A stretch of DNA of 24,441 bases, taken from positions 1 through 24,441 of the IMG/VR virus record IMGVR_UViG_3300008261_000432. One strand, 5' to 3'. Source of the stretch: a virus. This document shows, piece after piece, positions 18,942 to 24,392 of the stretch (position 1 is the first letter of the stretch; each line of letters opens with the position of its first letter). The notes beneath the pieces were generated by a model, which was not told the origin of the DNA, searched no databases, and was given only the letters and a program-made list of their open reading frames with translations. A program made the position numbers and the translations under genes.

Positions 18942-18988
18942 GCTTGACATTATTGCCTATTCTGTTATACTCTATCCATAGATTGAAA
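18942..18988 (+). repeat. 47-bp promoter-leader repeat, copy 1 (copy 2 at 19133-19179)
   Basis: The two 47-bp copies are 191 bp apart and identical in the first 13 bp (GCTTGACATTATT) and in the last 25 bp (-10 and transcribed leader); they differ only within a 9-bp block of the spacer. One drives a zinc-finger peptide gene, the other the structured RNA region. Confidence 0.8.
18944..18971 (+). promoter_or_regulatory. Sigma70-type promoter of the zinc-finger peptide gene
   Basis: TTGACA (18944-18949), 16 bp, TATACT (18966-18971); expected start near 18978. The initial transcribed sequence CTATCCATAGATTGAAA is the same as behind the promoter at 19135. Confidence 0.75.
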
Positions 18989-18997
18989 AAGTAAGCA

Positions 18998-19138
18998 ATG
19001 AAAATTAAATGCATAACCTGTAATAAGAAATTCCTCAGCAATGTTGTTTTTGAGCAACACTCCTGCGTGAAAGTTTATGACACAAAATCGCTGAAAGAAT
19101 TGTTGCAAGAATACAACAGCTCGAGAAAAAATGCTTGA
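18998..19138 (+). CDS. 46-residue zinc-finger-like peptide
   Basis: The peptide starts MKIKCITCNKKFLSNVVFEQ with C-x2-C (5 and 8), followed by HSC (His21, Cys23), giving a compact CCHC-type zinc site, and then a basic helical tail (KSLKELLQEY). The stop TGA at 19136-19138 lies inside the -35 of the next promoter. GTAAGC rather than a strong ribosome site precedes the ATG. DNA or RNA binding is plausible; function unknown. Confidence 0.55.
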   Translation: MKIKCITCNKKFLSNVVFEQHSCVKVYDTKSLKELLQEYNSSRKNA

Positions 19139-19162
19139 CATTATTACCGGTTGTGTTATACT
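19135..19162 (+). promoter_or_regulatory. Sigma70-type promoter of the structured RNA
   Basis: TTGACA (19135-19140), 16 bp, TATACT (19157-19162), with start expected near 19169. No good start codon follows until 19426, so the first 255 nt are non-coding. Confidence 0.78.
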
Positions 19163-19168
19163 CTATCC

Positions 19169-19414
19169 ATAGATTGAAATTTTAACCATTTTGAGACCGC
19201 ATGAGGAACTGTGGTACCGCAAAAAGCCCATGCCAACATGGGCTCTCAAAGTGTAAAGCAAAGGGATCGTATCCCCGAGGCTCCAGTTGAAAAATTACTG
19301 GGAATTAATGAATGAGCTGCTAGTTTGTAAATGGTGGATCCGAGGACAGACAGTGCAGGACGCTGACTTAGGGCTGGCGAGTAGTGAAACCGGTGAGCAG
19401 CTCATTCATTAGTT
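19169..19414 (+). ncRNA. Candidate structured non-coding RNA or long leader
   Basis: About 245 nt behind a strong promoter with no supported gene. Helices seen: TTTGAG/CTCAAA (19190-19195/19245-19250) enclosing ACCGCA/TGTGGT (19196-19201/19210-19215) and an 8-bp AGCCCATG/CATGGGCT hairpin (19225-19232/19237-19244), a three-way junction; GGGAT/ATCCC (19263-19267/19271-19275); CCAGT/ACTGG (19283-19287/19297-19301); and a 19-bp stem (19303-19321/19396-19414, one G-U) enclosing further pairs such as CAGTG/CGCTG. The stem ends next to AAGGA of the next gene. ACCGCA occurs twice (19196, 19216), allowing a switch. I recognise no known RNA class. Confidence 0.65.
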
Positions 19415-19425
19415 AAGGAAATAAA

Positions 19426-19692
19426 ATGACAGCATTAAAAACATATCTGGATCGCAAAAACATTTACGCTTCAATTTTTGGTGGAAAAGCACTTACTTTG
19501 ACCAATGCTACTGACCGTCAAAGAATTGCCGATTCAATTGATAGTGATTTGAGTCCCGAGAATCTTACCTGTGATGGTGAGCTTCCCCGTAATATTGTGC
19601 AAGCCCGTTATAAGGAATTGACAATGGCAGCAAAAGAATTGCAAAAGCTGGATCCATCTGTTAAAATTTATGAATTCTACACAGGAGAATAA
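19426..19692 (+). CDS. Unknown 88-residue protein
   Basis: AAGGA (19415-19419) precedes ATG 19426 and touches the foot of the 19-bp stem of the structured RNA. The product begins MTALKTYLDRKNIYASIFGG and has LSPENLTCDGELPRNIV and a helical end (YKELTMAAKELQKL). I recall the SPENLTCDGE motif in hypothetical proteins of proteobacterial phages; function unknown. It may be the gene regulated by the structured leader. Confidence 0.62.
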   Translation: MTALKTYLDRKNIYASIFGGKALTLTNATDRQRIADSIDSDLSPENLTCDGELPRNIVQARYKELTMAAKELQKLDPSVKIYEFYTGE

Positions 19693-23644: not shown

Positions 23645-23720
23645 GCTCGGTTCGTCTATCGGTTTAGGACGCTGCCCTTTCAAGGCGGAAAGATGGGTTC
23701 GATTCCCGTACCGAGTACCA
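23645..23720 (+). tRNA. tRNA-Glu (UUC)
   Basis: 76 nt with encoded CCA. Acceptor GCTCGGT pairs with ACCGAGT (one G-U), D arm GTCT/AGGAC-type, anticodon stem CTGCC/GGCGG with loop CTTTCAA (anticodon TTC at 23679-23681), T arm ATGGG/CCCGT. It reads GAA (and GAG), the preferred Glu codons of this A-rich genome. It is the first tRNA after the boxA element. Confidence 0.94.
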
Positions 23721-23922
23721 TAATAAAATTTATTGCGTTGACAAGTCCATTAGGGGACTATACCAAATAACGGGACGGCGGTCTCCGGTTTAGGTATACT
23801 CATGATAGCCGCTACGATGGTGATGGGTAGCTTGTACGTAATGACCACACACAGCGCAGGATCGCAGCCTGTGAAAAGTAGGTGTGAATGGTTCGCAGTA
23901 AATTTTATTATGGTAATATTGT

Positions 23923-24149: not shown

Positions 24150-24214
24150 CTTAACGGTTAAAGTAACTGGCTTTTAACCAGTAAATCAGAGTTCGATTCT
24201 CTGTGCCTCTACCA
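24140..24214 (+). tRNA. tRNA-Lys (UUU)
   Basis: 75 nt with CCA. Acceptor GGAGGTA/TGCCTCT (two G-U pairs), D stem ACTT/AAGT, anticodon stem ACTGG/CCAGT with loop CTTTTAA (TTT), T arm CAGAG/CTCTG. The 5' ten bases overlap the coding end of the basic protein at 24018. Its CCA tail takes part in the following long stem. Confidence 0.94.
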
Positions 24215-24310
24215 TATAAAAGCACATTATTAGTGACGTATGAGCAGGTCATTAACTTCCGCTGGTTACGCCAATAGTAAGTAAGTGAAGGATAGTGTGC
24301 TTCTATATGG
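24212..24310 (+). ncRNA. Structured RNA element between tRNA-Lys and tRNA-His
   Basis: CCATATA (24212-24218) and AAGCACATTAT (24220-24230) pair with ATAGTGTGCTT (24292-24302) and TATATGG (24304-24310): about 18 pairs with one A-C mismatch and one G-U. Inner pairs include TGAC/GTCA and CTTC/GAAG. T4 also carries stable non-tRNA species (C and D RNAs) within its tRNA cluster. It could be a processing site or such a stable RNA. Confidence 0.55.
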
Positions 24311-24316
24311 TATTAT

Positions 24317-24392
24317 GCAGTTGTTAGTGTAACGGTTAACACCACGGATTGTGATTCCGTTAATATGGGTTCGATTCCCATACTTCTGCCCA
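24317..24392 (+). tRNA. tRNA-His (GUG) with weak acceptor stem
   Basis: 76 nt counting G-1 to CCA. G-1:C73 is present, as His tRNA identity requires. The acceptor CAGTTGT against ACTTCTG has two adjacent U-U mismatches at 4-69 and 5-68. D stem GTGT/ACAC, anticodon stem ACGGA/TCCGT with loop TTGTGAT (GTG), T arm ATGGG/CCCAT. Confidence 0.9.

Follow-up and report, generated by a model that had tools for sequence, protein, structure and literature searches.

In phage T4 (NC_000866), rnaC and rnaD, the species 1 and 2 RNAs, are small, stable and noncoding, 139 and 119 nt long, and lie within the tRNA cluster. Their functions are described as yet unknown (PMC9697503). GOLLD and ROOL are described as RNAs of phages or prophages that are often found near tRNA islands and whose function is unknown (PMC12286853). 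For T4-like phages of aquatic habitats, the RNAs reported include a Melnitz-like glutamine riboswitch and tmRNA, together with the cyanophage RNAs wcaG, manA and glnA (PMC9004378, PMC9964418).

The DNA analysed here (hereafter the window) is a 24,441-base IMG/VR record from a freshwater T4-like virus of bacteria, and the RNA proper occupies about 250 bases of it, at 19169-19418. It is a new family within the phage structured RNAs of function not yet known and belongs to no named family. When the window was scanned with Rfam 15, tRNAs alone reached the gathering cut-off; the glutamine riboswitch, tmRNA, wcaG, manA and glnA are all Rfam families and none was found at this level. Relaxing the scan of the span to E 10 added DUF2815 (16.3 bits of 41.2) and snoR66 (13.1 of 43), both at chance level, and eight related loci gave tRNAs only. 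These results agree with the preliminary description of the locus, which had placed the RNA in no known class. In the literature surveyed, which consisted mainly of titles and the openings of abstracts and took in few subscription papers, no description of this RNA was recognized. Its setting is comparable to those of T4 rnaC/rnaD and of GOLLD/ROOL, but by the tests made it is not homologous to them. Covariance models of the present RNA (R1 and R2, see below), run with filters off, had no credible match to rnaC or rnaD (best E values 0.046 and 0.072; 8.9 and 9.5 bits), and rnaC ends in a T-arm-like hairpin, whereas the present RNA has none. GOLLD and ROOL, at about 660 to over 800 nt, greatly exceed it in size and belong to Rfam, where cmscan found no match to the window. 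Likenesses to a T-arm, a T-box and an anticodon loop, judged by eye against the consensus, were dropped because the loops lack the fixed bases.

Structure and covariation of the RNA

The whole span 19135-19425 was found to fold better than all 200 of its shuffled controls (z -4.60), and the same was true of the part from the likely transcript start (19169-19425, z -4.76), of 19185-19305 (z -4.25) and of 19300-19418 (z -5.05). When one strand of the window was scanned in sliding 120-nt frames with 40 shuffles, 28 of 406 frames had z below -2.8, and values in coding sequence reached -5.0; none of the 28 overlapped the RNA, whose helices are cut by the fixed frames. As coding frames also reach z -5.0, energy by itself is weak evidence, and relatives were therefore sought. 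The structured RNA at 19169-19418 is real, and it is covariation, rather than energy alone, that establishes it.

The records compared are those of T4-like phages, gp23 (the T4-type capsid protein) being present in 9/10 large records tested. The primase of the window is nearest to that of Methylophilales phage Melnitz (42.9% identity); among INPHARED phages the DNA relatives of the window were short chance-level pieces only, and megablast gave no match. Relatives of the 88-aa protein encoded downstream of the RNA were used as a first anchor in IMG/VR (80 loci taken) and led to contigs in which a portion of the RNA stands some 1 kb from the 88-aa gene. A pattern made from the most conserved stretch of the RNA gave 46 IMG/VR stretches, many of which are the clearly homologous, covarying RNA amid other genes, and a looser pattern gave 28, found without a protein query, of which one (L144) was new (L-numbers label the IMG/VR loci or contigs compared with the window). 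Covariance models of module A (R1) and of the core (R2) were then run on the fetched loci and records. The module A alignment consists of 16 distinct sequences chosen by reading the pattern stretches; L101, L103, L110, L112, L120, L124 and L128, for example, were left out because they are unrelated contexts without P5. Among the 34 matched elements, the cores of L051 and L049, of L160 and L162, and of the window and L089 are identical, and L111 is absent from the core comparison. A GAGGAAC hairpin that follows a promoter in L028 (R1 20.4 bits, E 0.004) and weak R2 matches in L164 and L040 were left out of the counts. A 19-base pattern matched bacterial genomes exactly at six places; these were judged to be chance, since R1 spans only 19-26 of its 119 positions there.

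The constant part of the RNA is a 52-nt core, in which P4 carries a GGAUCGNAUCC hairpin and is followed by P5 with its UGNAAAAUY loop; IMG/VR phage contigs yielded 34 matched elements with it. Across 30 distinct cores, 99.0% of 414 cells pair (shuffled 87.0%, slid 23-47%), 9 of the 14 pairs change on both sides, and double-change cells number 50 versus 9.7. Because the first search pattern included the letters of the core hairpin, part of the hairpin's invariance reflects how members were selected; later members, such as L144, L184, L199, L224, L229 and L190, were found without the exact first pattern.

In 23/34 elements the core is preceded by an optional 5' part, in which P1 closes P2, with its GAGGAAC loop, and P3; the three-way junction and two small hairpins described previously were recovered in the fold of the window. 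Over the 16 rows of module A, 501/513 cells pair, compared with 463 in the best of 1000 shuffles (counted with our own script after one gap had been shifted by hand), and double changes are seen in 17/33 pairs with letters. Covariation in related phages, proposed earlier as a check, is thus strong in core and module A alike. G-U pairs occur in P2 in 10/16 rows, which suits an RNA rather than a DNA palindrome. On stems of at least 4 pairs, GAGGAAC was counted 28 times in the loci collected versus 0 to 8 for eight reordered loops; most of the 28 come from repeated contigs and from the family itself, so the count is descriptive and not proof. A switch built on a repeated ACCGCA had also been suggested, but among the 16 rows the window alone has ACCGC at the second place, and the lack of conservation leaves the switch without support.

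A long stem (P6) begins right at the foot of P5 in 7/32 elements, namely the window, L089, L109, L122, L168, L199 and L229, with 0/100 shuffles as good in each. It corresponds in the window to the 19-bp closing stem with inner structure that had been reported. Its stem sequences are unrelated between groups and its interiors range from 4 to 77 nt; the window-type interior is conserved among five close relatives, the only sequences known to have it, and compensatory changes are found among them at three P6 stem pairs. Since P6 is optional, and is found joined to the core or, in L134, without the rest of the RNA, the 245-nt molecule of the preliminary description is one RNA with optional parts. 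Read by eye, a 34-codon frame within P6 (ATG at 19311) runs uninterrupted in the window and in L134; in L089, L109 and L122 it is disrupted or shortened.

Table 1. Features of the RNA and its flanks in the window
Feature	Positions	Strand	Remarks
Sigma70-type promoter TTGACA-16-TATACT	19135-19162	+	11/12 matches; TG before the -10 box
Putative transcript start and leftover 5' leader ATAGATTGAAATTTTA	19169-19184	+	Start inferred from the -10 box
Module A (P1-P5)	19185-19305	+	R1, 120.1 bits; the window is 1 of the 16 model-building rows
P1, 5' arm	19187-19195	+	Pairs with 19245-19253; fold and covariation
P2 hairpin, loop UGAGGAAC	19196-19215	+	GAGGAAC invariant in 16/16 rows
P3 hairpin	19225-19244	+	One compensatory change, G-C to A-U, relative to the close relative L089
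P4 (19257-19259 with 19280-19282) and inner hairpin GGGAUCGNAUCCC (19263-19275)	19257-19282	+	First half of the core
P5 hairpin, loop of UGNAAAAUY type	19283-19301	+	Second half of the core
Module B, optional long stem P6 (19303-19321 with 19396-19414)	19303-19414	+	Conserved interior 19322-19395
Next ORF, 88 aa	19426-19692	+	Outside the RNA; at least 574 relatives in IMG/VR

Gene order, promoter and genomic places

A homologue of a basic protein is encoded upstream of the RNA, on the same strand, in 23/34 elements. Its reading frame ends close by in 18 of the 23, the stop codon either covering the first base of the element or standing no more than 5 nt away. Most relatives have the RNA in this trailing position without a promoter of its own, and a tally of the 28 stretches found without a protein query gave the basic ORF upstream in 15. 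The protein is small, highly charged and rich in alanine and lysine, with a pI of 10.3-11.0 (seven proteins); four such proteins, scanned with Pfam and PHROGs, gave no family above the cut-off. A search with the basic-protein alignment led to 80 loci; at E<1e-6 the RNA, or at least the core, was present in 31 of these and absent from 49.

In L088, L089 and L122 a 49-aa Cys/His-rich ORF is followed by a promoter, the leader ATAGATTGAAATTTTAA, a ribosome-binding site, the basic ORF and the RNA. The window has a Cys/His-rich ORF of 46 aa, the same promoter and leader, and then the RNA directly, the leader meeting it at about 19184/19185; the leader ATAGATTGAAATTTTA is the same as that of the basic-protein gene in the three relatives, and the basic ORF is missing between two TAA-ended stretches. 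As the basic ORF and the RNA also stand together in the distant relatives L105, L119, L125 and L168, the simpler reading is of a loss in the window, where the gene would have been deleted and the RNA kept with its pairing. Between the window and L089, 7 alignment positions of module A differ, and the stem changes (C-G to U-G, and G-C to A-U at columns 42/62) preserve pairing. The preserved pairing suggests that the RNA stayed under selection once the ORF had gone, but the changes are too few to prove it, and a recent loss without selection would also be possible. The structure is likewise kept in the other elements that have no basic ORF (L113, L049 and the copies in tRNA arrays).

The RNA had been credited with its own promoter within a span of 19135-19425, and both points need to be qualified. 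The promoter does serve the RNA in the window today, but by descent it is, judged from the comparison with these relatives, that of the deleted protein gene; and the span does hold the structured RNA, but its first ~34 nt are promoter and not RNA, so that a 5-bp pairing of 19141-19145 with 19420-19424 in the full-span fold uses untranscribed bases. Promoter and leader form a direct repeat in the window (18942-18997 and 19133-19188, 86%), of which the copy at 18942-18997 is the promoter/leader of the 46-aa Cys/His-rich ORF, and near-consensus sigma70 promoters stand before many small genes in these phages.

Most copies of the RNA lie inside operons. Others have a tRNA-cluster setting like that of T4 rnaC/rnaD, all without the basic ORF: tRNA-Cys and tRNA-Glu flank the RNA in L084/L106 and L086/L126/L095, L102 has it at the contig end, 115 nt past tRNA-Cys, and L144 has it 175 nt ahead of tRNA-Glu. 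A promoter-like site is found ahead of it in L086/L126/L095 and L102. The window differs in this respect, its tRNAs beginning 4.3 kb downstream of the RNA. Where whole records are positive, the RNA is present as a single copy (9/9 records for R1, 6/6 for R2), and it is optional, with no match in 18/27 whole records for R1 and 28/34 for R2. Downstream of it stand at least six types of ORF, as well as tRNA-Glu. The 88-aa family that follows in the window occurs also on contigs of up to 524 kb, but has nothing above threshold in Pfam, PHROGs or INPHARED; in the 80 loci of this gene the RNA is directly upstream only in L003, a contig of the same phage, and partial or core copies lie about 1 kb away in a few.

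Mode of action and competing explanations

The explanation favoured here, to which we give a probability of roughly one half, is that of an undescribed modular RNA family of T4-like phages, the neighbouring ORF of which has been deleted in the window, and which works in trans as a discrete RNA. A constant core would have been joined, lineage by lineage, by the optional GAGGAAC junction (P1-P3) and the optional P6, and the usual order would place the basic-protein gene and then the RNA on one transcript. In the window, deletion of the protein gene would have left an early host-type promoter to transcribe the RNA directly. The RNA would then be released as a discrete molecule and act in trans, most likely as a decoy or scaffold whose invariant loops are presented to a partner, protein or RNA, a mode of action that would resemble that of a stable phage RNA. 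A constant, single-copy structure, with or without the protein and amid varied neighbours, fits a discrete RNA better than the leader of one gene, and the combination of variable stems with fixed loops suggests a binding partner. A trans-acting RNA, one of several possibilities raised in the preliminary description, is thus the reading preferred here; for a ribozyme, also raised there, the one result that bears on it is the absence of an Rfam match. On any reading of its action, a covariation-supported family with models and gene order joins the phage RNAs of open purpose, T4 species 1 and 2 included, and because the neighbouring protein gene has been lost naturally while the RNA remains, whether the RNA works alone can be tested directly.

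The main rival, which we hold to be possible but doubtful, is action in cis within the basic-protein operon. The element would then lie between cistrons or in a 3' UTR and serve to protect or process the basic-protein mRNA, or it would be a site of autogenous control, bound by the protein; the window copy would be a relic. The close approach of the element to the basic-ORF stop and the strongly basic protein favour it, as does the new promoter that often follows the RNA (L049, L098, L104, L162 and L205, by eye), and a place within operons is also what would be expected of a cis-acting operon element; however, elements that lack the ORF keep the structure, and no terminator-like site (hairpin plus U run) was found on the plus strand within 19135-19425. 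It is rather unlikely that the basic protein and the RNA form an undescribed two-part phage module. In such a module the protein would bind the core of the RNA derived from its mRNA, and a host function, for instance translation or RNA-sensing defence, would be attacked or hidden by the particle, or by the RNA alone in phages that have lost the protein gene or in which the RNA has moved to the tRNA array.

A regulatory leader of the downstream gene, riboswitch-like or translational, is improbable. The last stem of the window does come close to the ribosome site of the gene at 19426, as had been observed (P6 ends at 19414 beside AGGA at 19417-19420), and in L083 nothing but the core occupies the leader that runs from promoter to start codon. 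Yet the genes that follow the RNA are of many kinds, tRNA-Glu among them, a promoter separates it from the next gene in several contigs, and relatives of the 88-aa gene almost never have it directly upstream, so that the earlier proposal of a leader of 19426 is not supported. Still less probable is a sponge for the host regulator CsrA/RsmA, in which GGA in hairpin loops would titrate the protein. CsrA binds the consensus ANGGA, and the GAGGAAC loop is presented on a covarying stem and is invariant, with two such loops in L086 and L119; but 14/16 rows have a single loop, where CsrB/RsmZ have several GGA loops, the first base of the loop departs from the consensus, and on the phage side no CsrA gene was found in 20/20 phage records. 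Least likely of all is a mobile or selfish DNA/RNA element hopping among intergenic sites: the many genomic places, the modular ends and the lone P6 of L134 would suit one, but there is one copy per genome, casual inspection revealed no flanking repeats, and most copies retain the same neighbour gene.

Further RNA-like elements in these phages

The same phages carry several more RNA-like spacers between tRNA genes. In the window, the 205 nt between tRNA-Glu and tRNA-Gln (23716-23920) are closed by a 22-bp inverted repeat, fold with z -5.34 and are probably another noncoding RNA; among the loci collected, this stretch recurs only in L118. The 110 nt between tRNA-Lys and tRNA-His (24208-24317) likewise have a long closing stem (z -5.41). 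Stem-bounded spacers were also seen in the tRNA arrays of L126 (3649-3868, minus strand), L106 (10485-10722 and 10721-10880), L105 (9299-9657) and L135; such spacers are common to contigs at 68-91% identity, and the one that was folded gave z -4.81. L111 (5019-5180), a core-only locus, and the tRNA array of L144 (52-180) have in common, at 83% identity, an RNA-like element some 160 nt long (CCUAUCCCAAGGAUCAC...). Another shared element, of the form UUCAAAACGC...AUUAAAUGA-hairpin-UCAGCC, is found in L144 (731-830, minus strand), L028 (2884-2947) and L106 (10302-10363), and the arms of its hairpin covary by eye.
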